Of a stretch of 64,000 nucleotides of DNA, positions 21,432-45,365 are shown one piece after another; within the stretch, counting starts at the first letter, position 1, and the number at the start of each line of letters is the position of its first letter. The DNA comes from Styela clava. Its lineage: Eukaryota; Chordata; Ascidiacea; Stolidobranchia; Styelidae. The notes beneath the pieces are model-generated. The model was not told where the DNA came from and ran no database searches. It saw only the letters and a program-made list of their open reading frames with translations. The position numbers were made by a program, and so were the translations under genes. The stretch is taken from NCBI RefSeq assembly GCF_964204865.1, contig NC_135252.1, positions 12,979,383 to 13,043,382 of the forward strand, read 5' to 3'.

Positions 21432-22966
21432 GTCACTAGAAATCATGATTGTGTCAAATGCATCGTATTTATAAAATACTTTTTAAGATTTGTCAATATA
21501 ATTTGGAAGAGGCAAAATTTGTGTTATCGGAATATATTTGAACAAACTCAATATTCAAGTTGCAATAAATCTCAATATTTTCGGCGACATATCCCATTGC
21601 CTCGGATCTCTTTACAAGTGTGTAGCCATCCATTGTTTTGTATGACGTAATACAACGCTTCGAACACGGATGAAAGTGGCCACCGATATCTAACAATATC
21701 TTAAAGAGTTGCTCTACATACGTATTTCGCTGTGAATATTATACGAGCCATATAGGCGCGCAGTTTCATCTATCTTGTTTGGTTCATTTAGTGAAATGAT
21801 TATTGATAGCAGACCAGAAAACGTCCGATTTTCAGTAAATCGTTCAAGAATAGACCAAAATGGTGTTGGCGAACTAATGAATCTATTTCTTAATACAAAT
21901 GTAGCAAAATTGCATTTAAAAAAGTTTTGAAAATTTTAGGCTACGCCCATGATCTCTTAGACTTTTATACGAGAACCGGCTGAATTATAAACACTGAAGT
22001 CTGGAATGGGATATGAATGTTGGGTTCATGCCAGTCTCAACGTGGTTAGAATAACCGCCGATCGTTACAGGTCAAATCATCTAATTCTAAGGTATTATTT
22101 CCATACTGGAAATCGGATAACGGGCTGTGCTACACTATCCTATTTAATGGGTTTCTCTACCGATTGAATAAGGAAATCCTATGCTATATCGGCGGAATAT
22201 TTTCCCACATCGAAACGTCTATTCAATCAGTTTTATATTCGAGAAACAGACCCCAATCATACAAGCCCATCGGGGACCGATGCGGTTATCTTGGAGTCAC
22301 TATTATTCACACGCACTATAAACCAGACATTCACTGTTTCAATACTCATTTTACATACTCATCCCGGACATCTGTTGCTGTCTGTCTGACACACATCTGT
22401 TGCTGCCTATCTAAAATACTGGTTGATTAACAAGATAAAGTCATCAACTGATATCTCGCGCTAAAGCTTTTAGTCGATCAAAAAAAAATAATAAAAACAG
22501 TAAAATTTTCTGATGAGAATGGGGTGGTATACTATTAGGAAAATCATTAATCTTTGTTGGAGATAGATGAAAATAAGATGATTTGATAAATCATGACAAT
22601 AACAGACTTCAGTGTGCTCACTTCTCAAGAGACGAAAAGAGCTAGAAGATTGGGTTGCATGAATACGCACAGGATAAAAGCAATTCATAGTGAAATGCAA
22701 GTCAAAAAAGTTGGATTGAATTTTGCACTGCCAACCTTTAAACTCACATACTTTAAGTTGAGAATATTCGCATAATTTGAGCTGATATTTAACTAACTGA
22801 AGCCTAAAAAACGTAAACTACTGCGCACACAAAAAATACTTGAATCTTTAAAATTGTGAAGCATATCAGAGTCTCCGACATACGTCCCTGACCATCACAC
22901 CACGAAAAACATTGTTATGCAGAATGTTGACAAATGAATGCATTTCAATACATCCAACTTGATCTT
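21432..22966. other. Intergenic between convergent genes
   Basis: Lies between the 3' ends of the plus-strand Ly6-like gene and the minus-strand DHX9 gene. No exon, RNA gene or transposon end recognised. I did not find a clear AATAAA for DHX9 on the minus strand here, so its 3' UTR end is undefined. Confidence 0.4.
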
Positions 22967-25900
22967 TCACCATCTGCCACGTCCTCTGGAAAATCTTCCA
23001 TATCCTCTACCACCTCGTGGACCACCACAAAATCCACCTCCACGAAATCCCCCAAAACCTCCGCCCCCACGTCCTCCATAAAAACCACCTCCCTGAAAAT
23101 CAAACATTTGCAGGTGTTGTACTGAAACGTATTGAAACAATTCACACAAATCGAGAGAGAGTATTCTAAGAATTACCGTAATGAAGAAATATTGAATACA
23201 CAATGATAGCATATGGTCAATCAGAAGAATAAAATTCTGGATTAGATTGTACCTACCCGTGGAGGACCACCATAAAACCCACGTCCACCTCTGAATCCTC
23301 TTCCACCACGAAATATCTTATGTGGTGCACCATCTGGCCGAAAACTGGAAAATTAATTAGAAAACTTAAACCAATGCACGATTATACCCCATAAGAATGC
23401 AGTTGGTGTTCTGATATTCAGATCTGGTGTTCGAAATGTTGTCCCAGGTTTGAACAAAGAATGAGTTGTTTAAAGCCACATATGCTGGAAACACTCATTT
23501 AATAATCGTTAATCGGCGTTCCATGATGAGCTTAATAGCATACCAGGGTTCCACATAGATAAAAAGGGTTGGAATGCACTGGTATATGGTTTGGATTTTC
23601 AATTTTTGAGACGGGCATATCTATCAAATGGTCAATTACTGGAGGGCTACTTAATGTTGTATTCCATTGTACAATATGGCAGGGCAATATGACACTTACC
23701 TGTGCAATGCCTCTTGCGGATCCACTTTACTTCCAGCTGCAGTTGCTTTTGATAATTCTCGAACAATATCCATCATTTCTGCTTCAGCTGGAGGAGGACT
23801 AGCGATGGACTCTGGTTCTGAAGTGGAACGAACTATTAATCCTTCAAGTGCTGTCCTTAAAGCAACGCAACTAGCAGCCGCATCCAATGGCATACGAAGA
23901 CGAATCCTGACAAAATATTAAATATAAGAAATCCAGCTCATGTCACCTAAAGAGTTGATTATAAACATGACTAGGCGTTTGGCAATTTGCACTAAGTGAT
24001 AGGAATCTGCTCGCTATCTGCAACCCTGATTACCTTGCGTCAGTTCCTGTGGGGCATAATTATGTAAAAGACAATTGCTGGACTTTTCGCCGCTGTAGGC
24101 TGGTTCACAAAACCTCTGGTCGGTTACGGCTTTCTCCACCATCAAGCCCATGCATCTGAAACATATAACTGGCCAACTAATCCCATACCCAGCAGTGACT
24201 GGTAACCAGACGAAATACGAGACAATATGGTTCGTCATATGATGAAGTCGTATTATGGGCTTCCCTCTTTGGCTAAAACTCCTATCCTATCATAAAAATG
24301 TTTTGGGCAATAGCATTGTCAATAGAAATTACTTATTTGGAATCCATTTTTTGCCCAAAACATGTGTATTATTACTTAAAACAATTTATATCGTTCTTTG
24401 AGATTGTCGAACCAGATTCGACTAGTGAACGAAGAAATTATTGAGTACCGGTAAGTAAAATATTTAAAACACAACAAAATCTCACCAATCATCTATTTTA
24501 ACAAATTCTTCATGAGCAGTTACTTGACTTGAACTAAATATTAGAAGCTGTAATGGTGTCACCATCGTCATTTGTTTTGCACTCACTGCTCTAGTTCGAA
24601 TCTAGGAACAAGGAAACTATAATAGTGATGTAGATGACTAGATGTAAAATTCTTCATTTGTAAGAAAACACTTGAGGTTGAGAAAATAGGATTTGTAGGG
24701 TCTCGAGAAAAAAATTGCTTTTTGAACAATTGAAATAGATAATGAATCAGTTGAAATATAATTTTGACACCTAACAAATGTCGGGGATCCAACTAAAAAA
24801 TTGTATTCGCTATGCCTATAAAGATCAAAATATAAGAACACCAGTTACCTTTTCTCCAAAAACAAAGAAGGGAGATGGGAAAGTGCAATCTTTGTTTCCG
24901 AATGGACAATTGACTGATGATTTATGTATCAGAGCAGCTCTGGATTCACACAAAACCTGAAAAAATGGAACACAGTTTCGAATTTCAAATTTTACGCAAA
25001 CTATTTTATTAAAATCAACTAATGAATACTGTTACATACCTTTCTCTTTTCTTTATGAATGCACACATTTGGATAAACACCAACACATAGAAGTGATATC
25101 ACAATGTCCAGTTTCGTATCTTCACCATTAAAGTTAAAGAAATGATGTTGAAGACATTCTTCCGGAAAGCCCTGTGAGAATGCAGAAGAATTAGATAGAG
25201 AAGGTAGAGACAAAGTGTCATGTATCAAAACTAATAATTACAGAACAAGAAATTTAAAGGCTTCTTTCTCTCAGTAAGGCATTGGGAGTATTCCGGACAG
25301 GCTGTCAGATAGGTCATGGCTAAGTAAGTTAAATATATTTTTGCTACTCTTTGTCAGAAATTGCAACTTTTATAATTTAATACTTCGTTAATGAGAATAT
25401 CTCTGAGTTGATTCTTAGCTTCTGATGTCATTCGAAGTGTTGTCATAGTAATTTGTTTTCTTTCACAAAAGTCTTTCTCTTGATCTTCTCCCCTCATACT
25501 GAACAAGATTACAACCAAAGTAAAAGAAAAGTAAATTGCATTTGGAGATGGAAAATCATACTGTGGAATACCAATATCAGTATGGCGACTTGAAGTTATG
25601 ACCTAAATTTGTCGCATACTTGACTGGCCCTGGCTGTGCAAAATGTTAGGAACGGATTTCCATAACTGACATGGACAGGTGAGCGGGGAACATGGTCTTT
25701 TTTCCTCAAGATAAAAATCCTATGTTATTTGGTTGCACCACTCATAAACGTCGCTTACCCTTTCTGGCATATGATAATAATAAATTAATTAAATATATCA
25801 GTAAATTAAAACTCATCTTTTACCTTGCACTTTCCCATGCATTAAAGCAAGATAATAAAGCTACGTGATCGGAAAATCTTTCTCCAGCAAAGTCACGATG

Positions 25901-28900
25901 CTTCCAACTCAATCTTTTTCCTGTCATTTCAAATGGTTCAGGAAAACATGATGCAGCAGCTATGATGCACATTGCATCACCGACACTAAAAATACATATT
26001 TATATTGTCTGAAACCGAGGTATATATGCTTACAAGTCCCGACGCACAATTAGCAAGCATACTATCATATTTTTCGCTTATATTCCAGTGTTGTCACAAT
26101 ACTTGTGTCACAATACTTGTGTCACAAACTTGAAGCTCGTTTCAACAGTATCTTTTTATGTTTTTAACTTTCATTATATTCATTATTATCATAATGCTCA
26201 CTAGCCTCGATTAAAGAGTATGTACTCTCACCTTATGTATTACCACAATGATAACAATCTCAAGCTTGAAGCGCAAATAGAGAGTATTACATTGTGATTT
26301 CCCATTTATGGCAGAGTGGCGCATCATCGTGCTAAGCGATAAAAATACGCTCGCCACCACACCTCTAATTGCCCTTCATGGGTTCGCAGGGACGAATCCT
26401 GTGGGTGACAATTATGTGCAAGTGGATTGCTGGACTCCATGTCACCTTGGGGTGGTCTACGAAACCGCTTGTCGGTTCAACTTCCTCCACCATTAAGACC
26501 ATGCATCCAAAACAATGAACTGGCTAACTAGTCCCATACCCGACATGGACTGGTAACCGAACGAGAGGCCGTGGTTCGCAATATGAATATGAGCAGTTTT
26601 ATCATTTATCCTCTCCCCTGGGGTAAATATGTAAATCCTATCGTACACAAAATAACATTGCTTATATAGTGTTTTTAGACCTTATTTAGGTTTTGGCAAT
26701 TGCCCTGCGGGGCTTGTCTTGTTTATTGTAATCTTTCTGTACCATGGAGTAGTTTAAAATAAATTATCTTTCTATCTTATCTATTTTACCTAATCTAAAG
26801 GACAGAAAAAATAAAATTCCGACATACAAGAAATTGCATCCGAGTACAATCATCTTTCCAAGTCTTGGTTCCAGAGGTAATTTAGCAAGAATTCTACCAA
26901 GTGGAGTCAGCTCATCATTTTTATCTAAAGCATTTATTTCTCGAAGTAAATGTTCTGCTTCAATCACTGCATCCAATGGTGGTGGTTCAAGAGCCTGAAT
27001 AATACAAAATACTAAATTTAAATAATGTAAAAGAATAGTAAATTGAATTCTTCTGTTAAAAGTCTGAAATTTTAAAACATTTCAGTAACTATTCCATTGT
27101 TAATATCGCATATTTGTGACTTTAATATGGGCAATTTTCATATTATTTTGTACAGCATCACGTTTCATCAATGTATGAAGTGTATCTGATTGAGTGATTG
27201 ACCTCTAAAATGTGGGATTGGATGGTGCCGGTCTCTGGTATACTTGTCTGTATCATCATGCTATATATAGATATTGTGTTAGTGTACAGTGCTGATATAA
27301 ATGGCAAGGATGATTCACCTTTGATAAAAATTCTCCAATACTTCCAAGTTGAAGTAGTTTTATACTCAAAGCAATTTCATGAAGTGGAGTTCTCAACATT
27401 TCAGGAGTGGAATGAGTATCAAGCCTAAAATAACAATTTCCCTGTTTTATTCCGCTAAGCAACATATTAGAAAATACAAAAACCTTGTCTTTATTAGTTT
27501 GATGATAAAAGTATGAAAATTCTAATCATTGATATTTCTTAGGAATTAATGAGTGCAAAATATTTGAGCAGATAACTAAACTATTCCATATACCACAACT
27601 CGTCACATATTCCCTATTTATAGTGGGAAGTTACATACTGCACTAGCCCAAATTACAAATAAGCAATTTACTTTTCATAACGAGGTCTACTGCACATGTA
27701 AAAGCAGAAACCAGGTCTAACACGACCAGCTCGTCCTTTTCTTTGTTCCATGTTGGACTGTGAGGCCCACACAGTGGCATAATTTGTCATGTTGTTGTGA
27801 GAAGTGAACATCTTCATTTTTACTCTGAAATCAAAAGATTTTAATTAAAAAATTCAATTTTTTGAGGTGTCTCGCACATTAATTCGGAAGGGGCTAAATA
27901 CAATCTGTAGGTAAGATGTATGGGTATGGATTTACAGGTGGAGTTTGACTCGAGCCAGAGCTGTGAAGTGTAGAGTTTGTTGATAATAAAGTCAGGGTCG
28001 AATCCCAGAGCAGGGAGTCTGAGCAAAAAGTAGAAGCTGAAATTCGAAATTTCTAATAGTCCAGGCCCATCACTGAAAAAGCTTGGGAATGACCAAGTTT
28101 AAAGACAAAATTCTGATAATACTCTGGTAAAAACATACTTGCATGAATCAATCACATAGACAACATCATTGATTGTGATGCTCGTTTCCGCAATGTTAGT
28201 TGACAGAATTATCTGAAATATAAATTCCAAAATCATGAACATAAGAGTAAAGTTTTATGTTTTAGTAATGAAGGAAGATGTTGCCCCAATTCAATAATTA
28301 TTCACCAAAAAAACTTGCGAACAGGTACGTAACAGCATTGACAAAATTTATTCACATTTTGATAATGTATAAAACAGTTGATTAAATTTTTGAAAATTCC
28401 GGTATATTTGATTTTTGGAATATCTTATTAATGAGACACTTTGTTGAACAAGTTCTTTTCTCTTATTCGAATTTGACATTGTATAAAACAGTTGATTCCA
28501 TCTTCAAAAATTCCGATAAATTTGATCTTTGATAATATTCTATTAATAAGACACTTTATTGAACAACTTCTGTTCTCTTATTCGAATTTGACAATGTATG
28601 AAACAGTTGATTCCATCTTTAAAAATTCTGATATATTTGATCTTTGATAATATTCTATTAATAAGACACTTAATTGAACAAGTTCTGTTCTCTTACCTTT
28701 GTTACACCCTCCGGTACTGGCTCAAAAACTCTGTGTTGATCTTCCCTTGGTATTTGAGAATGTAATGGCAGTATTCTGTACTTTGGTCCACCTTAGGAAT
28801 GATAAAAATTATATTGTTACTGTATGAATCAAGTTCATAATCACTTTTTCAATTTAGAATTTCAATTTAGATAGGGCCTCATATGAGATTATGAAATTAT

Positions 28901-31900
28901 AAACAGCAGAGAAACAAAATACTACAAAGTCAGTCAGACAAGTGAATAAAACAACGCAGTGTACGAAAGTTGGTGAACCCAGTCATGGAAACTTTTGAAT
29001 TTGACTTCGCTGATTCTCAAGAATCAAAAGACCTCGCTGACAAAAGACCTCGAAAGAAGACTTGAAGCAGCAGAAATGTGGTATATCAGACGAGTTATGA
29101 GAATATCGTGGATGGAAAAAAAGTCAAACGAAGAAGTAATGGAAAAGGCCGGGTACAAAAGATCCCTAATTAAAACCATCAGGAAAAGACAACTACAATT
29201 TTTTGGGCACATAAACAGAGCAAATGGGATAGAAAAGCAAATACTGTGTGGAAAGATTTGTGGTACCAAAAGTAGAGGAAGACAACGCACAAAACACACC
29301 GACAGTCTGAATAATTACGTAACGAAGAAAGAATCCTCCAACAATGAACTCATCAGGAGAACAAACAACAGATTGGAATGGAAGGCCATGATCGCCGATG
29401 TCTGTAACAGACCTGGTACATGGAGAAGAAGATTCTCAAGCATGATGTGTTATAATACGGAAGTGAAGTGAAACAGTTGATAAAATTTAAGACACTGTAA
29501 AGATTCGTAATCCAAATGAAAGAGACTAGGTGAAAGTTTCCCCAATTTTCACTCAATATTGATCTCTGACAGACCTGGTTCAGATGGATGAGTATATTCT
29601 GAATTGATATCTTATGTTATGAAGATACTCACTGAATACAGGATGATTTTCCAGATACTTCATTAACATGAATATAAGATTCCATCCAGGAAGAAATACA
29701 AGAACTGCACCAGGCACATTCAAACCTAAAAAGAAATAATATAAATTTTTATTATTGATACAAAGCAATAATATCAATGCTAAAAACAGCATATTTTGGC
29801 CGCAAATGTCACTATGAATGTTTCTCCAAGCATCGACTTCCTTGTTGACCTCGTGACATTTGCCAATCAGCAAGATGCAAAAAGTGACGTAATAATGCAT
29901 CCGCTCAGACACTTTTCTCACTCAGGCAGATTTTCAAGTGTGGTCGTAAACAACGCCTCGTTTTCACATCCTTTTATACTATTCGTTAGTTTTCAGTTGT
30001 GTTGCGGACATTTAAATATAAATCAAAAAATTCAATGATCACTTTGTCTTCCTAGAAGTTTCAGTTTAATTGCAGTAATCAAAAATTAGTGTAGAAATAG
30101 CTGTGATAGACTAGGCTATAATTCTTTACTGGTACTTTTAAAAATCAGATTGTTAAATGCCATGAATCAGAATGATGATTCGAAATAAATATCCCATTTT
30201 ACAGCGGCCCAACTCACGAAACTATTTTTAAAGTAAGCACCGAAAATTGTACAATCATGGTGAAGTATAGGACTTAATTTAACACTAACGACTACGAGGT
30301 CAGTATGAATAAATATATTTGAATATAACTTCAATATCTTGAAATACAGTGAAATTCAACATATTTAACAATAGATTTTGATTACCATACCTGCAATATA
30401 CTTGAGTAATGCTTCAATTAATTCAAAACTTAATTCTTTCTCACTCAGTTGAGATAATGCATGTCGAGTTGCTTCAGAGTAATTATTGCTGATTTGCAGG
30501 TTGAGATTTTCCTAAAATATGAAGTTTCAGATAATAGATAAATAATCAATGAAAAATAATATTCAAATTTAAGGTATAATTACAAAAAAGCTTTGAAAAC
30601 TATATAGAAATATGATTCTGTCAATTGATGCAAGAAAAGAAGCGATTTGAGTTTTGATCCGAAAAACAGCCATAGGCAGTAATTTCTATACAAATGGGAT
30701 TATAGCTATAAAAATATTTATCATAAAAATTCATTTCCTTGACACTAAATTGACGAGAGCTTGCGGTCAACTAAGTACTGACAAAGCGGAGCAACACTTC
30801 ATCGATAGGAAAGAGTTTGCATTAGACTAGAATGATCTTTAATAGAATAATGATGTTCGGTTGCACATTCGTCAAATATTTTATTCAAATAACTTCTGCA
30901 ATTGTATATCACAGATCTTATAGCATGGTGAATATTTAAAGTATATACCTCTACTTCAGGGTGCGCAAGGTTTTTAAACCAGGGGCCAAATCATGTAAGT
31001 GTGACGTGAAAAGTTACATTTTATTAACAATATTTACAGTGTTACAAAAGCCTAATTGGAAAACAATGAGACTCGTGCCAAAACTGAATTTAATCGCAAT
31101 CCCAACATTTTGAGCTATTTTGTTTAACTAAATATCGAAAATTTAGTTTTAGTTTGGTTGTGGCAGAATCAGGCGGGTCAGATTGAATTACTCAACGAGC
31201 CGGATTTGGCACATGGGCTGTGGTTTGCCCTTGTCAACTCTCCTTCCACTTACTTCATCATCGCCACCCATTCCAGTTTCATCATCATCGTCATTGTTGT
31301 TATTATTTTTACGATCTTTCCTTTTCCTATTCATTGGTGGAGGTGAGAATCCCAGCATTTGTACACAATCCTCAAGAAAATATTCTGAACATGAAAACGT
31401 TATTGAAGCATCATTGCAATAAAAGAAAGATCAATTCCTTTGGTCGCGTTACTGACCTTGGACAGGATGGGTACGTCCATGAACTTCAACTACTGGGCAA
31501 TTGTTGAAATATTGACTGAATATGGTTGTATCAATTGTGGCTGACATCAATATAATACGAATCCCGGTAAATGTGGCAACAATATCACGAAGAACAACAA
31601 GAAGAAAATCAGTCTAAAATAGAATACGAGTCGTGATGAGGTATAGGCTATTATATAGCCTAAATGAATAGTTTGATCTGATTCTCAAATGAACGATTCT
31701 GGTCCATAACAATATTATATAATACATACCCTATGGTAACAGAATTTCAACAAGTAATACATCGAAAACTACAATCAATTCAAATAAAGAATTTAAACAC
31801 TCAATTTTTAAAAAGTCTAAAATAACGATCCCGCCTCCAATAAGTTTGAAATAACACTTAAAATTCCAGGCTAATTGAAAGATGACTAAGAATCCAGCTC

Positions 31901-34900
31901 CAATAACAGCAAAAACAAGATGACTTCGACTATCACACTATCTTAGGACACAGCAAGCTTCTGGGTAACTGGATCTTATTAGCATGAGCTTGTACAAAAA
32001 TTACAACGATTTTAACTCTGATAAAGAAGGAGGTTATAACATATATATGTATATAACATAGCTTACATTGATGTCACGTTCATGAATTTCATCAACTACA
32101 ACATGGGATATTCCTCTTAAACCAGCAGTCAATTTTCTGAGCAGAACACCTGTAAACAAAGTTGTATGAATTCATATAGACTTCAATAAAGCATGAATCT
32201 ATTTTCTAGTGAGATGAGCAAGTTGGTAATAATCATGTTGGCATTGCATAGGAGAGATGACAAGTCTAAATCCGGTACTCCCGAAGTATGCATACCAAGA
32301 TGGCGAACACAGAAACATAGTATGTGTACCAGATTAGGGTTAGGCCATAATTTTCTTCATTTTAGTTCTATTACGAGTTCGGGGACTAGCCAAGTGACTC
32401 CCATAGTATTTGTACCTAAAGTTATGGCCTACCCCTAACCTGGTTGGTACACATTAACACATACTACGTTCCAGTGTCCGGTATCTTGGTAGCCATACTT
32501 CAGGAGTACTCCAAATCCTACGCCAATCATGGAATACTACATTGTAGATAGAGTAAACAGAGTGTCATTAAGTGTCTTTATAGTTGTAAAAAGACTTTAT
32601 GGACACCCTGTATTATATCAAAATATGCAGAAAATAATCTCACCAACAGTACAAAACAGGATTCCAGCGTGAGGTCTTGGTAAAACAGAATCAAATCTGA
32701 CACTGTATCCAACACTTTGACCAAGATCTTCCCCCCTTTCTGAAAACAAAGAAAAATAAACATACAGAGAAACTTACATCATAAATGATAGGATAGGATA
32801 GGATTTACATATTTATCCCGGGGGAGAGGAAAGCCGATAAGACGGCTTATCCATATGGCGAACCACGGCCTCTCGTCCGGTTACCATTCCAAGTCGGGTA
32901 TGGGATTAGTTTTTACTGTATTGTTTGTTTTTCGGAAGCATGGACTTGGTGGTGGAGGAAGCCGTAACCGACCAGCGGTTACGTGAACCACCCAACGACG
33001 GCGAGGAGTCCAGCAATCCTCTCGCACATAACCATCCCTGCATGAGATTCGAACCTGCGAACCCACGCAGAGTAATTAGAGGTGCGGTGGCGAGCGTATT
33101 CCTAACGCTTAGCCCGTTGAGCCACACCGCCGCACCAGCATTTTGACTGCATTTTCATTTTGAAACTTCGTGAATTAGATATTTTGGGCATACATACCTG
33201 TTAGCACTGCTCAATTTGACATGTCTATTTAAGGATTTTAGACTCTACCTGCCTTTGATATGCACTTCTAACAGAATATATCCTATGATTGAATTATACA
33301 ATGGAGACAAAAAAAATTGATACTCCCGTAAACTGAATGAAACTAATGAAATTTAAAAAGAATGGTAGTATCTAATATGAGTGGTATCTCCCAAACATTC
33401 TCGTTCAGTCAGTTATACTGATGACATCATTTTTCATTCCTGTCTTGAAGTAAAGTTCGACAAATACAACACTAGACAGGGGGGTATCAATAACAAAGTC
33501 AAGGGAGTGAATTCCAGCCAAATGGTAAAATGTCTCAAGATATGAAGAAACCAGTTTGGGTAACAACAATGTTTTAGTACATCTAGGCATTTCAATGGCT
33601 GAAACTTTGCTAAGAAAGTGCACATGAGCAAATTTTCTAAAAAGAATTCTATACAGTAGAAGGGCAATGAAAAGTGCTAGAAGACCTTCAGCAACTCTTT
33701 CAGCAACAGTAACAGCACTTATTCTTCTTGGTTGAGTCACAATAATATTACAATCTGATGCTCTATTTGATTCAATCAAAGATTCGAGAACATACTGAGG
33801 AACCTAGAACAGAATATTGATAAATCATTTTACCAAGAAATTAAAAGGAATAAATGAAATAGCATCAAAAAATGTCAAAAATTTGAATATTATAGTAGTG
33901 ACAGTACACCACTGATGGTATTTGGTCAGCAAATCAGACACGTCTAGTTACAGAAGCGTACTAGTTCTGTTAAACGTAAACCTAACTTTTTCCCACACAT
34001 GTGACTTGACTTTTTTTAGATTTTTCTCCAACCACGGAATACTGTTATCGTCACAATAACGAGTGTATATGTAACCCAAGACGCCAGAGCGCAACAGAAA
34101 CCTTCTCATTTTTAGTTGTTACATATGGACATCATTTTGGCCATACTTGTTTGACTATAAAAATAGCTACCTGTGTAGTTTTACCAGAACCTGTCTGTCC
34201 TCTGATAATAATTACAGGATTTTTCTGTATCTTTTCTAATAATTCATCTCTGTATGAAAATATTGGTAAATCAGCACGTTCATTCATCATCTGGAAATAT
34301 GTACAAAAAAATTGATTAGAAGTCAAGTAAATTGGTTCCAGCAACTGAAATCAAGATTCAGTAAATGTATAATAATTCAATTCCAAATGTGTGATTGATT
34401 TTTCAGATAATTTTCTCATTTTGTTAAATCATATTCGAGTCTGGTCAAATTATCGGATCAAGACAATGCAAGGAAGAAAAAGTGTAAAACTATTCATACA
34501 CAAATGCCGCTCAGAGAACAGGCCTTTTAATAAAAAAACGAGAGTTGACACAGACATACTGCATTAATTTTGTATATAAAGAAAAAAAAAGGTATCTCCA
34601 GGAAAACGACGACAAGAACAATAGACATTGTCATGAAATGGACTAAAAACTTTTGTATGAGCATCACTTATAATTTTGGGATCACAAACTTGATAAAACA
34701 TAAGTGAAATTGTCAACCAATAATATTATCACCACCACATTACCTTGTTCATCAGATTGTTTTTATCCAATGCATAATTGTATTCATTCAATAAGTCATG
34801 GCTAATTTGTTCAGAAGTCATCTGAAAAAGTAATAAAAAATGACAGAAACAAAGAAAGACTATGGTTTGAGGTTACTTATTGGTGTAGATACAATAGAAA

Positions 34901-37900
34901 CTTATATCTGAGGCAAAATAGTTTGTTTCCTGCTAGAAGGTCTACTTCTATTGGGCATCGTAGAATTGTGGTTATTGAAGATTTGGACTTGAATTTTGTT
35001 TGCACTGTGACCAAGGTAAAAATCTTGTCGTGTTAAAACCCAATGTTCACCATATCACCAAGAGTATAATAAATTGGGTAGGCAATGCCCTGCCAAAGAT
35101 TCCAGACCTTCTAGAAATAGTTATCAATATGTATCAGCAGCTGCTTATACAGCCTTATTGTGGTGAAGGCCTGAAAATGCCTTAGAAGAATGACAATTAC
35201 CACATCTTATGTAATCAGTACTTAGAAAACAATCAAAATCTTAAACAATGCCACCACTTAAAATAAATGATATAGAATAAATGAGGTTTTATTTCCTGTA
35301 ATACTTGTAAACATTTGTAAAGCAAAGGGCAAAATTCTTACATTAGCTAAAGGTCCTTCATCAATGTTACAACTTGTCCACGGATTCCAATTAGCTTGAG
35401 GTGGTGACCATGGAATCACTCCTGCTACAAGTTTCCGTTGAGACGGTGGAAAGAATATTTTTTTCTGAGGAATCAAACTGACTGGGTTCTGATTTGGATT
35501 AGCATTAGGTGGAGGAACAGCGGGTGCAATTTCCAAAGTAGCAAGAGATTCCTTCAAATGAGCAATAACTTGTGGATTCAGTGTTACATCATAGGGTTCG
35601 GCCTAAAACGGGAAAAATTAGATAGCAAAATGATGAATAAATAATATTGAAATTAAATTTTTTCAATACCAAAATTTATCAAGTGACTATTTTAAATACT
35701 TATGTAATCTTTATATATTTCTGCACAAATATTTATCATTCTGAAAAAAAAAACCTAAAATAATGCCCTAATAATACCTTACATCATATAATTGCAAGTT
35801 AAATTTGTATTTAAAATGGCCAACCGTCAGTTTATCCTACCAGCTGTAACAGATATCTACAGAAATAGTTGACCATACTATCCAGGGCATAAATGAAGCT
35901 AGGGGGTTGAGTGTAGCATGTATTGATTCAATGATTGATATTGAAGTCGGGGCCAGAGTCGTTCTTTTAAATTTCACTAGTTCAGCAATTTGAATTATTC
36001 AAAACAAAATTTAATTTTTTGGAAGGTGAGAGAGTAATTGAAATTTTCTTCAAAGATTTTGGTTGCAGACTTGCAGTCATAAGTCTTGTCAAGCAGGAAT
36101 CTGAAGTCGTTTTGAAATCAGAATTTGAAGTTAGAATTGTATGTACATTTTCAACGACCTCATGGGAGTACACTTTATATATGTATTACTATTGGGTATG
36201 AGTTCAAATACCTCATCACTTTGTTTCTTCTTGGTTAAGCCAGTATAATTTTCAATAACACCAAGATGAAACAATTGTCGTACAAGAGATAAAGCTGCCG
36301 ACTGTGATGCATTTTTTTTATTAGATCCATGTTCTCGAGCATGAAGAGCTGCAAATAACCAATGTTCACCTTTCAGTGAAAGATATAAGCAAACATATCA
36401 CCAATTTCACAAACTTCAAATAATTTAAATTTAGTCGGCTTTGCTAAACCAAAAAGATTTCACAAGTAGGAAATAAATTGGAAATGAGTTTCAAATATTT
36501 CATAGTTATTAATTCAATACCATAAGGAATATTTCTCTTTATAAGTCACTTACTTCTTCCAATTTTTTTGACATAGATAGCCATCTCAGCAATAAAGCTC
36601 CTAAAAATACAAATAACTCGTTGGCAGGCAAAGAGATGGTGATATAATTAATAAAGAGTCTTTTGACCACTTTGATTTGAAAATCAAAATTTAGTGCAAC
36701 CAATCTGAGTTTTCACCTTAAATTTTTGCGGCTCGATATGTCGTTGAAAGTTTTCAAATCGCTTATTTGAGTAGATATCATAAATTCGCAACATATTGTG
36801 CAATCTGTTCTGTGTTTCTAAACTACATTGTACTCACCCTTCAATAATCATGATCAAGTACAAATCCCGGGGCTAAGAAAATAGAAAGCAACAAGTTATT
36901 GCAACATCACAAAGCATAAAATAATATTTTCTGCTGCAGATAATAAATTACCATCGGCTCACAAATTATTACTAAGCGTAATATCTGTGAGCCATTGTGT
37001 CACTGAATATCACAAGTGCATTCCATTTTTCCCGTCTCATGAAATAAATGAACTTTATATTATTCATATTCATGGTAGCTTGTGAAGACAAGATTTGAAG
37101 GCACTACGGAATATATGTATCATAGAAGAATCGTAGAAGAATTCATTCGTACAATGATTATTTCCAAGTTAAAGTGTATTCTATCCTCCTCCAAATCAAT
37201 TTTAGACAGCAGAAAATATTTTATGCTTTGTGATGTCACAATGTTGCTTTCTACAATCTCATACATAGTTCATGGTGAAATCGATCATCAAAGTCAGAAG
37301 CTCATAAATATCAGAAAAATGTTCATTTTAAATAATAATGAATATGGTTATCGAAATTTCCTAAACCAGAAATAGAAGATATGCATAAAAAGAAAGAAAT
37401 TGCTAGAAGGAAGAGGAATTTAAAGTTTTCATTCTAAACAACAATCAAATTTAAGTAATAAAGTGGAATTGCTATTAACTTGACCCACTTGTTATGGTCA
37501 GGTCCAACTTGACTATACTTATAATCTGCAGAGATCTTTTCCTTTTGAAAAAATTCATTCAATCTTGATTTCGCATTGTCAATTGTCCAGTTTCCATGGA
37601 GACGAGAATTCATGTCAACTTCTTCTGATGCAAATGTCTAAGAAAGATAGAAATTTAAATAAAAAAAAGTGTCAGTGATTTGGTATTTACTACCTTTTGC
37701 ATATTCAGTCCTGTTAATAATGATCACATTTGTGAAGTTGTTTATTGGATTTGAAGTCATATTTTTTAATGTCCTCGAAGTCATAGACACAATTTCGAAT
37801 TCACTGGGGTCATAATCTTAGTGTTAACGGTGATAATTGAAGTCATATTTACGCTAGAAACTGTTATAAAGTTCTCAACAAACAAATGAAGAAGGTTTGA

Positions 37901-40049
37901 AAGAACACCAGAATTTTCTTTGTCATTGTTTTTTCAGAGTTAGGATCTGGAATGAAATTTCTTTCCCCCTGGATTTTTTTCATCCAAAGTCTGGTCTAAA
38001 TTTTACCAAACTGGGATACAAAATCTGATTCTACAGGTTTTCATGAGTGTTGCAAAATGTACTTCCAGAATGTTTCCAGAAACTAATTATAACACTACAA
38101 AAACTTGCCAGATCCTAGGACAATCAAGGAAATACAGAGATAAAAATGAGATAACAATGTTCACGAAAACAAAACAGTTGTTTTACATATTTTCACAGAA
38201 TCCAGCACCTTCAGGAGTTAATAAACTACCTCTTTCTCCTCCATCTCTTCCAATTTTCTTCTCTTATCATAATATTCATGCAATGCCCCACCTCTCTCAG
38301 AAGGGCCAGCACTTCCCATGCCATAACCTTGGAATCCAGAAGACATGAATTGGCTGTAAAGATGAAATCCTATCAGGTCAAATAGTTTTGAATCTACAAG
38401 ATAGGGCTGAAATTTGACCATAAAGCCCATAATCTAATCATATCAAGAAAATTGAAGAACAAGACATTTGCCGTGGCAAAAAATGGGGAGGATTTATTCA
38501 TACTTATGTCAGGAGAGGTCAATGATACAAATCAATCATAACTCGACTGTTTTTTCCCTTCAGACACTTATGGTATATTTGGATGGTGGAAGAAGATCAA
38601 ATCAACCACAGATTAAGTAAACCACTCAATGATTGTGAAGAGTGTACCCATCCCTTCGCAAGAAATGATTCCCACAAAAATTTAAATATGTAGACCCATG
38701 CAGCATATTTTGCAGTTTGATGTGCCACCATTAAGTCAGATAAAACACTTCACATGTTGAAGTTGAGCGTGTCAATTTTAACATCCCAATGTGCTTACTC
38801 TGATGGTTGGTTTTGAGAAAAATCATCCTGCCTCTGCATTTCCTGTTTTAGTTGAAGGTGAGGAGGAAGAGAACCAGGAAGTGGTTGACCTCCTTCACTC
38901 ATCATGCCAGTGCTGGAAAATTGGGATCCATTGTTTGGTGGCACCATAGGACCAGTGCGGACACCCTGGGGAAAATTAAACGATTTTAGTAAATTAGTTT
39001 ATTCCTATCAAACTACAAATGGTTAATTTAACCAATTTAATTTTAAATAAATTTTTATTTTTGTACAACATGTACAGATTCGGCTTGAAGGTCCATGCCT
39101 ACCTGTATCTTGGCACCAACAGTGGATATGATCCAATAGCAACTCTTAAATATTCCAGTAGTCGTGTCATGTTATCATTACATGTACAAGTAGTCCCCAT
39201 CATATTTTCATGTGAAGTTATTTTTTCATGGCAATTTTTTAAAGAAATTAGCATTTTGTCATTTTTTTTAAACAAGTTCAAGATTTAGGTTCCAGCTAGT
39301 GACAAAAGATACTACTGTATAAATTTCAAATCTCGAATGGATATAATACAGGACAAAACATATAAGAGAAAAAACAAAATATCCTTGAATGATAATCATG
39401 TATTTATATAGATATAAATACGAACCGATTTTGGGGGTACTTCAGAAGGCTTCATTTTTCCAGCTCGAACAAGATAATTAACAAAATCCCAGGCAGCGTT
39501 TGCTTGGGCATCCTTCTTATTTGTTGAGTTTCCTATTCCAGCATAAGGTATTGTATCAACTCTGAGCTAAAAATAATAATAATAGTTGAACATAAATTAA
39601 GTTTGATACCTAAAGAATTATAAACTTTACTATATTTTCATATTATATGTCTAAAATAGTCAAATCCAATCAGTGAAGCAATTTACATATTACAGAAATG
39701 AAAAAAACACTCGAATATTCAAAGCAACTCAAGACTGCATGTCATTGGCAATATAAATAGTTTTTCCTTATTACCAAATTGGCTTTGTTAAAGTTAAATC
39801 ATCATTAATGGAGCAAAATTTATCCCAATCCACTCATGTGGCAAATAATAAGTTTATTCATTTCACCACAAATGTAGTAAATGGCTTGACAGTTGACACT
39901 TCAGTTGAAAAATGCAATGAACGATATTCTCTGCTTACCTCACATTTAAATCTTGGTTTATACTTGTTGCCACCAGCTTGAACATCATAAACTGGAGTTA
40001 GCTTTTGTTTTCCAAGCCATGAATATACAAATGTCTTGACTTCAGTCAT
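22967..40049 (-). CDS. DHX9: ATP-dependent RNA helicase A (DHX9/maleless homologue)
   Basis: Thirty exons: 40049..39939, 39566..39426, 38965..38800, 38353..38230, 37637..37489, 36600..36554, 36348..36212, 35602..35342, 34821..34744, 34290..34171, 33803..33686, 32739..32644, 32149..32067, 31613..31457, 31384..31254, 30511..30391, 29725..29633, 28791..28697, 28212..28139, 27824..27672, 27424..27319, 26994..26828, 25985..25824, 25498..25384, 25171..25040, 24956..24849, 24601..24486, 23906..23700, 23344..23257, 23092..22967. About 1,260 residues (human 1,270). In order: dsRBD1 ([37 protein letters not shown]), dsRBD2 ([21 protein letters not shown]), a [16 protein letters not shown] linker, [10 protein letters not shown] (Walker A, about residue 436), [17 protein letters not shown] (about 536), [44 protein letters not shown] (about 795), HA2 and OB-fold regions, and an RGG/FRGGRG tail ending GRW. 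It unwinds dsRNA and R-loops in the nucleus. All phases agree except exon 3, which is one base short. Exon 15 carries a local [12 protein letters not shown] insert. Confidence 0.95.
24006..24296 (+). mobile_element. tRNA-derived SINE, copy 1 (diverged)
   Basis: Aligns by eye with the better copy at 32787-33135: TTGCTGGACTTTTCGCCG, CTGGTCGGTTACGGCTT, CCACCATCAAGCCCATGCAT, GACTGGTAACCAGACG and the tail CCTATCCTATC. The tRNA-like head is degraded. It lies in a DHX9 intron, antisense to the gene. Confidence 0.7.
26308..26645 (+). mobile_element. tRNA-derived SINE, copy 2
   Basis: The head GGCAGAGTGGCGCATCATCG and CTAAGCGATAAAAATACGCT resembles a tRNA 5' half. GGTTCGCAGGGACGAATCC is a broken B-box region. 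The body has GGATTGCTGGACTCC, CCACCATTAAGACCATGCAT and CGAGAGGCCGTGGTTCGC; the tail is TAAATATGTAAATCCTATC. In a DHX9 intron, antisense to the gene. Confidence 0.75.
28351..28695. repeat. Three tandem ~115-bp units adjoining a DHX9 splice donor
   Basis: Units 28351-28465, 28466-28580 and 28581-28695 each contain TGTATAAAACAGTTGATT (or TATGAAAC), TTAATAAGACACTT and TTCTCTTA. Units 2 and 3 are near-identical; unit 1 is more diverged. The right edge coincides with the GTAAGAG donor of DHX9 exon 18 (minus strand), so the donor-proximal part of the intron has been triplicated. The internal copies read GAATAAGAG instead of GTAAGAG and have lost the donor GT. Confidence 0.85.
28995..29471 (+). pseudogene. 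LINE reverse transcriptase C-terminal fragment
   Basis: A 158-codon frame in the intron between DHX9 exons 17 and 18, antisense to the gene. It includes [56 protein letters not shown] and [15 protein letters not shown]. The block RRxLRISW...NEEV...RQLQFFGH is characteristic of the region after the reverse transcriptase domain in non-LTR retrotransposon ORF2 proteins. The catalytic domain and endonuclease are missing, so this is a 5'-truncated dead copy, the usual product of target-primed insertion. Confidence 0.75.
32273..32512. mobile_element. Foldback MITE, copy B
   Basis: The left GGTACTCCCGAAGTATGCAT with ACCAAGATGGCGAACAC pairs with the right GTCCGGTATCTTGGT and CATACTTCAGGAGTACTCC. The interior shares GTTAGGCCATAATTTTCTTC, ACTAGCCAAGTGACTCCC and GTACCTAAAGTTATGGCCTA with copy A at 12770. 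Sits in the DHX9 intron between exons 12 and 13. Confidence 0.7.
32787..33135 (-). mobile_element. tRNA-derived SINE, copy 3 (best preserved)
   Basis: Reading the minus strand, the head has GTGTGGCTCAACGGGCTAAG (A box) and GGTTCGAATCTC (a near-consensus B box). Then come GAGGATTGCTGGACTCC, CCGCTGGTCGGTTACGG and the tail TAAATATGTAAATCCTATCC with three or more ATCCT units. This fits a tRNA-derived SINE with a pentanucleotide tail. Same transcriptional direction as DHX9, in an intron. Confidence 0.85.
38575..38740 (-). mobile_element. tRNA-derived SINE, copy 4 (highly decayed)
   Basis: Plus-strand TTTGGATGGTGGAAGAAG, AACCACAGATTAAGTAAACC, GATTGTGAAGAGTGT and ACCCATCCCTTCGCA follow the same order and spacing as copy 3 but with many substitutions; the B box is lost. 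An old insertion in the DHX9 intron between exons 3 and 4. Confidence 0.45.
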
Positions 40050-40066
40050 AATGAAAAAATGTCATA

Positions 40067-40076
40067 CTACAGAGAG
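40067..40076 (-). promoter_or_regulatory. Candidate 3' splice (possibly trans-splice) acceptor 17 nt before DHX9 ATG
   Basis: On the minus strand GGTCTCTCTGTAG precedes a 17-nt leader, TATGACATTTTTTCATT, and then the DHX9 ATG at 40049. The pyrimidine tract plus AG just before the start is what a spliced-leader acceptor or a 5' UTR intron acceptor looks like. The leader contains an upstream ATG opening a seven-codon frame that overlaps the main start. Confidence 0.4.
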
Positions 40077-40136
40077 ACCTTACGATATTCAACTAATAAT
40101 ATTAAAAGGTATTGACAAGATACTTGCAATATAGTT

Positions 40137-40142
40137 TTTATT
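40137..40142 (-). terminator. VHL: Poly(A) signal AATAAA of VHL
   Basis: The only AATAAA (and no ATTAAA) I find on the minus strand between the VHL stop (40661) and the DHX9 ATG (40049). It sits about 520 nt after the VHL stop and about 70 nt before the candidate DHX9 acceptor. Confidence 0.55.
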
Positions 40143-40660
40143 TAGAAGAAACCTAGCTTTACATTTCAAAACCAATAAACACATTAAACTTCAATTTCAA
40201 TTCGGAAAAATCAAGTAGCATCACCAAATTTGCATTAGAAACTTAATGAGATGTTACCTCACTAGGAACATTCGGACAATAGGTTTGGAGTGCATAATAA
40301 ACGACAGTTAATGAAAGGTACAAAAATTGAAGACTTTTGCATAATGTTAGAATAGAAAAAATAAAAACAAGCATCAGCTTTATAAAACATATAATATACA
40401 TTAATATATAGGTTTTTTAAGAAAGAATTGCCGAGTCTAAAATCATTTTATATAAAATTTGTGTCAGAAATGTAAGTTTTTTAAATAAATACTAGTTGAT
40501 ATTATACTCATACAACAATCTTATGTTCTAAAATTAAAATCAAATAAACATTAGAGATTAAGTATACGACAATCAAAATATTTAAAGTACCAAAGATCTC
40601 AAGCCAATTTTTTCCGTAAACAGTATTAAGGTAGGTATCCTGACCTGTACATTATAGATA

Positions 40661-42024
40661 CTAATCTCCCTCAAAATAAATAGGAAGGTTTTTATTATCC
40701 TGATCTTTCGATAACTGTTTCAAGTCATTAGCTAATACAACAGGTAATCCATCAAAGAGTTGATCAACTTTCGAGTCAAATGTAGCAATAGAGGTATATT
40801 CACAATTTACCACCAAGTAACGGTGCAAGTAGTTCAAGCATATTTGCCTTAAATTCAAAAGAGGATTCACAATTTCAACGGAATGAAATCTTTGATGTTC
40901 TCCACTCCATTCAACAGGAAAGTAGATTTTCTCAAAGTTAGGAAGGAAAGTGAGTGGATGTCTGAAGAAAAAAAAAACATATACTCTTGAGTGGAGAGTG
41001 AATGCAGGAATATGAATAAATTTCTCAAGCAAAGAAGGAGATTAAATAATATTTAATCCTACTACAATACTAGACTATATTCAAAGAAATTAGTCTAATC
41101 AGAATTCAAATCAAAAATGTAGTTTTAACATTCAGATCGTCGAGAGTACCGTTCTTTCAGCAAAACTGATATTTTCACAATGGAAATCCAATTTGAAAAT
41201 GAAGATAAAATTGAGAAATTGAAATATTTTGCCATAATCTCTCATCTGGCTGTGAGTTAAATGCAGAAAAGTGGTTCGTAAATTTAGAAATTACCGTAGG
41301 TTATACAATGATACAGTTCATGCATAATGTAGGTAATTGCTGAATTACCGTAACCATAATTAAAAATGAAGGTAAAAATACCGGCTAACAGATTAATGCC
41401 TGAAATCAATAATCGCAAATAATGTTTTCTAACATACTGACATACCGGTATATAGTAGGGTCATGAAGAATAATTAAATGCTAAACATGGAATAGAGTCA
41501 TAGACTACAACTAACCCAACGCTGCAATGTACCACAAGACATTTCTGCATTTAGGTAGACTAGACACTGCTGTACAGCAGTACAGAGATGGGTTAAGTAC
41601 GGTACCTTGAAACCTCACAAAATCTATTATTGCAGTATTGCATTACCAATCCATGCATCATCTTTCAGTCTCTGTATTAACAATTGCTAGATTGCAGATT
41701 ATTCTTGCCACATTCTATGACAAGAATTTTACGAATTTAATGCATATTTTCCGAAATTACTCCAGTACCGGTACCGTACTCTCCACTCTGAACATCCATA
41801 CCGTACCTGCAAATACTCTCATAAAAAACCCAAGGATGTGTCTTGAAAGTATCCATCAATATATAATCTCTTGGTTCTAATCTGTCTTTATACACAACAT
41901 GATTTCCCTGAAAGTTGAGCCATTCAACAGAAACGTTCCTATCAGTTTTGTTAACAAATTTTGCAAAAGCAGGGTTTTGAGAATGTTGAGATCGTTGGCG
42001 TTGCTGCAACGGGAAATCGGACAT
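40661..42024 (-). CDS. VHL: von Hippel-Lindau tumour suppressor homologue (E3 substrate receptor)
   Basis: Two exons, 42024..41807 and 40961..40661, joined TGCAG|GTACGG to TTCTTCAG|A in phase, give 172 residues. Exon 1 carries the beta domain: AKFVNKTDRNVSVEWLNFQG, then VVYKDRLEPRDY and DTFKTHPWVF. By alignment from memory the human hydroxyproline-pocket residues W88, Y98, H115 and W117 are kept, and S111 is Thr. Exon 2 carries IYFPVEW, then NLRQICLNYL (residues 109-118), which fits the elongin-C BC box LxxxCxxxL, then two predicted helices. Known role: with elongins B/C and cullin 2 it ubiquitinates prolyl-hydroxylated HIF-alpha. An in-frame Met at 42087 would add 21 residues; I prefer 42024 because TATTTCAG just upstream looks like an acceptor. 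DHX9 follows on the same strand after 611 bp. Confidence 0.88.
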
Positions 42025-44158
42025 AATGCATGAATTGACGACGAGGCACTTACAATAAAATCTAAATACTGAAATATACCGATACATACAGTTTAGTTCA
42101 ACTCAACCGTCAACTTAATTCAGAAAATTAAACGCTGGCGAAGACAGCAGTATGAAAAATGTATTCGCAGCCATTCCAGAAATAGAAAGGACTAAAACCT
42201 ACTAAGGCCTACTTGGACGTAGAACTGTAGAATGTGGTTAAAACAGGGAAGTCTTTCAAGTTAAAACATGGTTCCAAAAATGGTAAAGGTTTCTCGAATC
42301 ACCAAATTGCTGGCTTGGCCTACACATTTATATGCAGGTTTTAAGTTGAAGCTGAAGGCGCCGGCTATGAGAATTGCGAGATTTTCAAATATACAAAATA
42401 TGATAACCGATATCCATTTACTTATAAATATCAGTTATTTTTTTCCGATGCATGATAATGGACTTTGTTCGGCTAAAATTTGTGACCTCCGCCAGAGTCA
42501 CTTTCAAAAAGTTCGTTCGTAGTTCCACCAGATTCGTCATGTCTTATTCAAGCGCTGCACAATACAATTTATTTACGCATTAGGATTGCTGTGGACATGG
42601 AGAAAACGGGAATAAAACTACGCTCCGTAACTACAGTGTACCACTCATACTGCGCATTGGTCAAATCTCGCGTTTATAACTATAATTCGACGACTCCATA
42701 TTTGTTCACAGAAAATAACAAACTCGGGCACTATTCTGCAAGCCCTGCTCACGTACTGAAAATTATAAAGTCAAGTACTGTACAGTCCGGCATCATTCTC
42801 ACGCCGAGCTTAACCCATTATTAGAACATGCCTAGGTTTAAATTACCAGTAGCACTATATCATTTGAAAAGTTTGCCTTAAATATCACTGATTTTTAGAT
42901 AATCTTAAGACCTCCAATTTAACGTTGGGAAAGGAGAAATAGAGTAACATACTTAAACCATAACATAATCAAAGAATTATGATTGCTATTTTATAACCAT
43001 ACGCCTATCAAAATGCAACAATGTTTGTTGCCATTTTTTAAATTCGCATCAACATGGAGTATACCATAAAAAACACATGATATCGCCGGGCCAAGGGATC
43101 GTCCGAGTAATTACTTACCTCTTCTTCGACCGTTTTCTAATTTGATCACAGTTAATTAATAATGTGATATCGCTAATCAGTTTGAGCGGGAATGTGCGCT
43201 TCGCTTTTCTCAACCATTCACTGGAGTTAGTAATGACGAACGGTTTGTCTGTTCTGTAGGAGCTTTTCAACGTACCGTAGTCTTTAATTTTTTTTGGCGC
43301 AACATTACAACATTAAGGTAAGCAGATGTTTTTTGATAAAAAATATATATATATACTAAGTCGCTGGTACAATTCTGCTACTTTTGGTATTATGTTTTAT
43401 AAATAGCGAATTATAAAACTTGAGGGGTTCCGGCAAATCAAGATTTCAAGTGTCGATAATCGCGAGATAAACAACATAATCAAAAAGGTTGAAGCAAGGA
43501 ACTTCCGAGATAAAAGAACAATCTTTTATGAAATCCAATTTAAACCTAAACCAAAGTTTGATTCCCCGGTGAGACAATTTTTTTATATATATTTAGATGG
43601 GCATACAAAGTTGTACGGACTAATCAAGTGGGACTTGGTTACCCGAATAAGTTAGACTTTTTTCATTTTGCACAATGTTTCTTGTTTTATACACATTTGT
43701 AATTTGGTAATCTGTTGCATTCATAATGTGGGTCGATAGCAGTATATAAGTTCCATTCCCATACGCTCAATTGCAACCAATGTTTTAAAATGTCTTTTCG
43801 TTGTTCCTGGTACTACTATGAATATCACGTTAGCAACACCCGTTTCATATAGCGTCCAATTATTAGAGTAAATTAGTGTAAATTTCATTGTACAAAATTG
43901 AAGGTCTATGCGAATCCTTTTATATAAAACGTATTACATATATATTTTAATAAATAAAAATTGTGTGAATATATTTATTTATCAAGTATTTATATTTACC
44001 GGTAGATATACTGCATGGTTTGACAATTGTGTGGATCATTGTTGTACAAAGAAATATCGACTATAGACTGGGGAATTTACGTTTGCAAACATGCGACGAT
44101 AGTCGTTACACAGGGGTAAATATTACACGCTTATGTTATATAATAGATAATCTACAGC
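42025..44158. other. VHL upstream region, no coding gene recognised
   Basis: Holds the presumed VHL promoter. On the minus strand TATATTTCAG near 42070 is a possible 5' UTR acceptor, and GAAGAAGAG|GTAAGTAA near 43115 is a strong donor that could end a non-coding first exon. Open frames at 42268-42522 and 42591-42824 on the plus strand have no motif or splice context, and I do not accept them as genes. Confidence 0.35.
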
Positions 44159-45357
44159 AGGGGTGTCAAACTCGTGGGTTTGAAGGCCGCATTGCATTTT
44201 GGGAATTGTGCAAAGGGCCGCAAACAGATTTGATATATTTTGATAATGTATACTTGAAGCATATTTTAAATAGGTGTAGTTTGTGACATATACTGTGATG
44301 CAATTAAACAGTCAAATGAAGTTTTGTTATTTTCTTAAATTTTAAATACCATTTACATATTAATTTTTGCATTTCACTATTTTTGCAATTTACTGTATTT
44401 ATTACAAAAATTTTATTTTATGTATAACTATCCAAAATATTTTTGAACAAAGTTTTGATAAGGAAAGAATAATACATACACTAAAAATGACTTAATCTAA
44501 ATATATAGATCTAAAATTTACAATATTGCTACAGAATGAACTCAATGTTTTTTATTGAACATGTCCTGACTTTTGACATCTCTTTTGTGCCACCAGCTTA
44601 CTAATATCAGGCTGAAATGATTTTACAGTATCAACTCTGATTAACGAGGTCACATGATCATCGGTTAATCTGGATCGTTGAGAATATTTGATTAATTTCA
44701 TTAATGCAAAAATATTACGTTCATCATTCCATGTATAGATCAGTAAACAAACAAATTTTAGAACCAAACTTTTCCCGCCACTACCTTCACGTGGCATAGG
44801 ACCGGTTGAGTTATGATTGATATTGATATTTAGTAACTAAGTATGGTATAATCATAATAGTATACAAACACATAAATATTTTCTGTTCGTAGTTGATCTT
44901 TAAAATTGTCATATTGACTGCTGAGCTTATTCTGATGATGTCTACTCATATTGTATTCTTTCATTTTACTGATAGAAACGTGAAAAATTGATCAATGCGC
45001 TTTAGAATTTTGAGAAATGCAGAAATATTGCAACTCCCCTTTTATTTAAAATTGCCACTTTTTTCATGTACTTTGTGTTTCATTTAATTCCCGTAGTGTT
45101 TTTTTTACAAGTATTCTTTTGCTAGCTTGAGGTGTATCCATACATAATTGTGTCAAATTGAAAACAAAAACATTCAATTTTCCAATGTTATAATTGTCGT
45201 TTTCTGTGTGAATAAGCAGTTTCACTTTAGGGTTTGAAAAATGTATTACATTTAGGTAACAAAATATATATTACATTTATTGTTAGGCGTTCGAGGGCCG
45301 CATTGGAAATTCTCTGGGGCCGCATGCGGCCCGCGGGCCGCAAGTTTGACACCCCTG
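44159..45357. mobile_element. hAT element with 8-bp TSD ATCTACAG
   Basis: The left end is CAGGGGTGTCAAACTCG at 44159; the right end is CAAGTTTGACACCCCTG, ending at 45357. They are flanked by identical ATCTACAG at 44151-44158 and 45358-45365. GGCCGCAT and GCGGCCCGCGGGCCGC are subterminal. The 1,199-bp interior keeps a remnant of the transposase C-terminus, so this is an internally deleted copy of a once autonomous element. Confidence 0.9.
44552..44797 (-). pseudogene. hAT transposase C-terminal remnant
   Basis: An 81-codon frame inside the hAT element. The part SRLTDDHVTSLIRVDT, then PDISKLVAQKRCQKSG, matches the usual C-terminal end of hAT transposases related to GTF2IRD2, EPM2AIP1 and ZNF862 (pattern RLTDEHL...PDIDKLV..KRCQ.SG). 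The catalytic core and BED finger are absent. It shows that the element's coding strand is minus. Confidence 0.7.
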
Positions 45358-45365
45358 ATCTACAG

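Follow-up and report, generated by a model that had tools for sequence, protein, structure and literature searches.

A CpG-depleted domain across VHL and DHX9 in the ascidian Styela clava: a possible two-gene operon

Operon genes in Ciona mostly adjoin one another directly, with a median intercistronic distance of 1 bp (PMC2760879, PMC7986045), and intercistronic DNA is described for 44 of 1,172 predicted operons (PMC7986045). For Oikopleura dioica, a median intercistronic spacing of 31 bp is given after a 60-bp cut-off (PMC7986045), and Oikopleura introns peak at 47 bp (PMC4122922). At the fuhc locus of Botryllus, a pair of genes separated by a 227-bp gap yields rare linked transcripts, and in the published account the pair carried no spliced leader (PMC3691228). 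Here, we describe a 64,000-nucleotide stretch of the Styela clava genome (contig NC_135252.1, positions 12,979,383 to 13,043,382; hereafter the window), in which the genes VHL and DHX9 are adjacent on the minus strand. As a first-pass annotation of this DNA had stated, the two run in the same direction with 611 bp between the VHL stop codon and the DHX9 ATG (40050..40660, minus strand). This gap has a guanine-plus-cytosine (GC) content of 26% and a T-rich sense strand (43% T), and it is short and looks unusual beside the other genes of the window, as far as these were recognised.

We put it at somewhat under an even chance that VHL and DHX9 belong to a single transcription domain and are co-transcribed, and the CpG content of the locus provides independent evidence that leans toward this reading. 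Methylated CpG decays, and methylated transcription units are therefore CpG-poor. Broadly expressed genes of Ciona have methylated bodies, whereas its promoters and most of its intergenic DNA are described as unmethylated; in a single transgenic line, the region from about -800 to +1000 bp of a promoter inserted into a methylated gene stayed free of methylation (PMC3827831). Ascidian promoters have also been reported to tend toward high CpG scores (PMC3333190). A two-state CpG hidden Markov model (HMM) with a fixed switching rate, run on the 64-kb window, placed a single depleted domain over VHL, the gap and DHX9 (22310..41955, no strand assigned). This domain, the longest depleted one in the window, consists of two (41955-33189 and 32780-22310) of the 13 segments that the HMM labels depleted, joined across an interruption at 32808-33169 by a copy of a tRNA-like repeat. 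It begins about 70 nt into the VHL coding region and stops 657 bp beyond the DHX9 stop. The segment 33189-41955 has a CpG ratio of 0.41, the lowest among segments with more than 13 Cs, and outside the domain the ratio is 0.98-1.32 in three stretches upstream of VHL and 1.21 in the kilobase past 22310.

The 5' ends of the two genes were also compared. From -600 to +100 of VHL there are 28 CpG against 24.8 expected (observed/expected, o/e, 1.13); the same interval of DHX9 holds 7 against 13.3 expected (o/e 0.53), which is lower than in every one of 202 overlapping 700-bp windows taken from intact DNA. The first 1000 nt of DHX9 contain 9 CpG against 24 expected (o/e 0.37), and TpG/CpA is raised there to 1.32. 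In a transplant control, each of 131 overlapping CpG-intact 611-bp stretches put in the place of the gap brought the depleted posterior below 0.99, all 22 low-GC stretches among them included, the posterior of the real gap being 0.997. Depleted DNA transplanted in the same way kept a posterior of at least 0.99 in 88 of 107 cases (17 of 18 for low GC). In these tests, the domain labels and the test windows come from one model, the windows overlap in steps of 100 or 150 bp, and a single gene pair is covered, with VHL as the sole promoter control.

We infer that the depleted domain is a footprint like that of mosaic, gene-body methylation in the germline, and that it would mark shared transcription. 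Polymerase would then start in the CpG-intact DNA upstream of VHL, at about 42.0-44.2 kb (42025..44225, minus strand, where a promoter for the pair most likely lies), cross VHL, the gap and DHX9, and stop near or beyond 22.3 kb. The VHL mRNA would end near an AATAAA at 40142, and the final ~100 nt of the gap would be where the 5' end of the DHX9 mRNA is formed, through trans-splicing of a spliced leader should the animal possess one. The nearest recognised neighbour on the VHL side is an organic-anion-transporter gene on the opposite strand, with its first match at 51.7 kb, which we count in favour of shared transcription. The fuller proposal, a two-gene operon joining VHL and DHX9 that is visible in raw sequence as a methylation footprint ignoring the gene boundary, is possible and somewhat more doubtful. 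A promoter shared by the two genes had already been suggested in the first-pass annotation; the common CpG-depleted domain and the short 611-bp distance speak for it, while DHX9 may just as likely have its own promoter in the gap, and the argument from processing signals, given below, fails.

That argument rested on a poly(A) signal closely followed by an acceptor at the downstream gene. Both elements lie where they had been reported. The sole AATAAA of the gap, a candidate VHL poly(A) signal, is at 40137..40142 (minus strand), 518 nt past the VHL stop where about 520 nt had been given. Seventy nucleotides from its end stands the AG of the proposed trans-splice acceptor, a pyrimidine tract plus AG (40067..40077, minus strand) in which the AG follows TCTCTCTGT and has its last base, 40067, 17 nt upstream of the DHX9 ATG. 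None of 14 poly(A) hexamers searched was found between 40136 and 40068, and the weaker variant TATAAA occurs in the gap at 40452 and 40384. When the gap was shuffled 2000 times with its dinucleotide composition preserved, AATAAA appeared 1.03 times on average and at least once in 65% of shuffles; it lay within the final 150 nt in 22%, and 13% combined such a placement with a YAG among the final 60 nt.

Acceptors were scored with two models, the second of them a purine/pyrimidine model, trained on 26 acceptors of VHL and DHX9 whose positions were set by reading frame and motif. The AG at 40067 scored -2.03 in the first model, where the 26 placed acceptors range from -1.7 to 13.3 (leave-one-out) and 39% of 920 other regional AGs score as high or higher. 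In the purine/pyrimidine model it again lies beneath all 26 placed acceptors, and 27% of other AGs are equal or better. An alternative acceptor-like site (40093..40108, minus strand; AG last base 40093) reached 3.4 in the first model, exceeding 2 of the 26 placed sites, and fell under every placed site in the second. The best-scoring acceptor candidates in the gap, by at least one of the models, are farther upstream at 40645, 40528, 40437 and 40262. Of the 15 upstream ATGs in the gap, a DHX9 5' untranslated region (UTR) beginning at these sites would include between 5 and 14. Splicing at 40067 would leave an out-of-frame ATG (40065) one base past the junction; its 7-codon reading frame (40042..40065, minus strand, found by eye) has a stop that overlaps the DHX9 start codon.

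Because AATAAA is expected by chance and the acceptor is weak by local splice statistics, the two together are weak evidence for an operon, and their 70-nt spacing is not Ciona-like. The predicted trans-splicing at 40066-40067, with a leader joined at 40066 as proposed earlier, is unsupported, since neither model scores the AG as high as any of the 26 placed acceptors. The tract at 40067..40077 could equally be a pyrimidine-type transcription start. The last 10 nt of the Ciona leader occur 0 times in the window against 0.67 expected by chance, which is uninformative. The sense-strand T excess amounts to 0.16 for the gap, against 0.13 for the intron of VHL and 0.07 for the introns of DHX9 pooled; the excess in the gap fits transcribed DNA, and equally an outron, outrons being described as U-rich in Ciona (PMC11155486).

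Several observations weigh against shared transcription. Taken alone, the gap is close to undecided, with 7 CpG against 10.3 expected and odds of about 3 to 1 for the depleted state. Its TpG/CpA of 1.08 is at or above that of 1% of depleted and 46% of intact windows; for the low-GC windows the figures are 0 of 18 (depleted) and 5% of 22 (intact). An intact 611-bp insert was itself called intact (posterior below 0.5) in 74 of 131 cases (7 of 22 for low GC), and a promoter shorter than 611 bp would escape the transplant test more often. The first 1000 nt of VHL are partly depleted (21 CpG against 29.1 expected, o/e 0.72), and therefore depletion after the DHX9 ATG is not enough on its own to argue away a gap promoter. 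Eleven other, shorter segments are labelled depleted, with ratios of 0.0-0.84 and a longest of 4.3 kb, and one at 45760-47602 (ratio 0.69) carries no gene recognised among the open reading frames (ORFs) sampled in Pfam; depletion is thus not proof of a gene. Ascidian promoters have been judged partly methylated, with CpG-rich stretches restricted (PMC3333190), and methylation is described for part of the intergenic DNA that separates convergent genes in Ciona (PMC3827831). The footprint argument presumes Ciona-like methylation in this species, as judged from the pattern alone. Moreover, a strong acceptor near the DHX9 ATG was not found with either acceptor model.

The strongest rival is a promoter of DHX9's own within the gap, which would make the two genes neighbours instead of an operon. 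It is about equally likely as co-transcription, because the first kilobase of VHL is partly depleted and the transplant test has limited power. Transcription could start just upstream of the ATG, with the TCTCTCT tract as a pyrimidine-type start, or farther up in the gap, in which case leader trans-splicing, acting on one gene only, would remove a short outron. About half of Ciona genes are reported to be trans-spliced, and where splicing uses the first acceptor, the median length of the part upstream of it is 458 bp (PMC11155486), which 611 bp can accommodate. The missing convincing acceptor near the ATG fits this rival, as does the TpG/CpA of the gap, which resembles that of intact DNA, and CpG depletion can begin within about 70 nt of a start codon, as it does in VHL. 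The TATAAA words at 40452 and 40384 could also serve such a promoter, although TATA-like words would be expected at 26% GC. Against it, CpG depletion persists across the DHX9 5' end, and 0 of 131 intact transplants reached the posterior of the real gap.

A non-coding first exon of DHX9, cis-spliced so that the tract near the ATG would be an ordinary intron end, appears improbable. Such an exon could come from upstream of VHL or from inside the gap, with a donor at 40257 joined to an acceptor at 40093 or 40067. The donor-like site gag/GTAACATC (40250..40260, minus strand) has a score matched by only 1.5% of other GT sites, the sites at 40257 and 40644 being equalled by fewer than 2% of 1028 others, and an intron 40257-40093 would measure 165 nt, within the 72-1051 nt of the pair's intervals. 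Both candidate acceptors count against it, since 40067 scores beneath all 26 placed acceptors in both models and 40093 does so in one. Occasional polymerase read-through between close neighbours without dedicated processing, for which the Botryllus fuhc locus is a precedent and which its authors present as the simplest reading there, a further point against co-transcription here (PMC3691228), is very unlikely for VHL and DHX9, as it requires a separate DHX9 promoter that the CpG footprint does not support.

All positions stated in the first-pass annotation hold. VHL comprises exon 1 (41807..42024, minus strand, coding from the ATG at 42024), an intron (41806-40962, minus strand) and exon 2 (40661..40961, minus strand, with the stop TAG at 40663-40661). 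The exons join in frame into a product of 172 amino acids that carries the Pfam VHL domain (PF01847, 4.6e-9) and matches human VHL in the PDB over residues 11-157 (E value about 2e-4). Conserved in it are the residues aligned to Y98, H115, W117, L158 and C162 of human VHL. Upstream of VHL, an element at 44160-45360 has inverted ends of the type CAGGGGTGTCAAACTC (by eye), is CpG-depleted at 44253-45217 and is presumably hAT-like.

The coding region of DHX9 (RNA helicase A) extends in many exons over 22967..40049 (minus strand), from the ATG at 40049, with which residue 1 of RNA helicase A aligns, to the stop TGA at 22969-22967, which follows a glycine-rich C-terminal tail. Exons 1-14 share a single reading frame, and the longer DHX9 chain matches RNA helicase A over its RNA-binding part and the beginning of the helicase core. 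In-frame splicing was checked for the first 14 DHX9 exons together with VHL (14 acceptors) and separately for five 3' DHX9 exons (4 acceptors); the remaining 8 of the 26 acceptors, in the middle exons, were placed and stand outside this joining check. The introns of the pair span 72-1051 nt in 24 of the 25 intervals listed. The 25th, of 1528 nt, between 31253 and 29726, probably conceals a further DHX9 exon. Three copies of a tRNA-like repeat, with motifs like box A and box B recognised by eye, lie in DHX9 introns (24053-24161, 26324-26645 and 32794-33120). The copy near 32808-33169 is still CpG-rich and is perhaps the youngest of the three. A tRNA scan of the window found none, and Rfam at gathering scores gave 0 matches on the window.

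The window belongs to an animal genome by its genes and has a GC content of about 34%. Outside the pair, 13 ORFs chosen by eye were sent to Pfam, and further neighbour genes are possible. The organic anion transporter gene (51694-59650, plus strand) has OATP and Kazal matches. An EF-hand exon (4280-4492, minus strand), together with a frame at 4785-4991 that has no Pfam match of its own, resembles myosin light chain by eye. An open frame of 369 amino acids at 5552-6661 matches DDE_3 slightly below the curated cut-off and is mariner-like transposase in character, and one of 384 amino acids at 9241-10395 has no Pfam match. Tandem duplications are present at 20438-20673 (118 nt, 99% identical) and 28358-28648 (about 115 nt). 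A bacterial promoter and terminator scan, which is inapplicable to an animal genome, gave 4 promoter-like matches against 4.9 expected. Searches for relatives returned 0 among viral contigs and plasmids and, among genome contigs, two bacterial contigs only and no animal relative. A literature search for VHL, DHX9 and operon jointly led to one paper, on human ribosomal DNA to judge by its title, and we make no wider claim of absence from print.

If the operon is real, a ubiquitin-ligase receptor that senses oxygen (VHL) and an RNA helicase (DHX9) would share a promoter, and one more operon would be added to a known class, tying hypoxia signalling to RNA metabolism within one transcription unit. 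More generally, a sequence-only test can be suggested for animals with mosaic gene-body methylation, in which an operon would appear as one CpG-depleted domain lacking an internal intact promoter. Operons in such genomes could be predicted from CpG footprints with no need of RNA data, and Ciona offers roughly 1,300 candidate operons for checking.

Among the described systems, the Botryllus fuhc locus resembles VHL-DHX9 as a tight same-strand pair with a short gap that lacks clear promoter elements. Linked transcripts were observed there, whereas VHL-DHX9 is known here from DNA sequence alone, and by analogy fuhc suggests that such a layout can mislead. With the spliced-leader operons of Ciona intestinalis, the pair shares its common strand, a short gap and a candidate poly(A) signal placed before a candidate acceptor. 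It differs from the abutting Ciona operons in the 70 nt from AATAAA to AG, which also counts against an operon; abutment of poly(A) site and acceptor, typical of Ciona and not defining elsewhere, is not seen in VHL-DHX9. In a tunicate-type operon, less than 100 bp would be expected from poly(A) site to acceptor, and the 70 nt here would fall under that figure if the candidate signal and acceptor are the ones in use. The introns of the pair, at 72 to about 1050 nt, are unlike those of Oikopleura dioica with their peak at 47 bp. The spacing would come near that of Oikopleura dioica if the VHL poly(A) site lay ~20 nt past AATAAA, leaving ~50 nt, and the 611 bp from coding sequence to coding sequence are compatible with an operon because the VHL 3' UTR is inside that distance.

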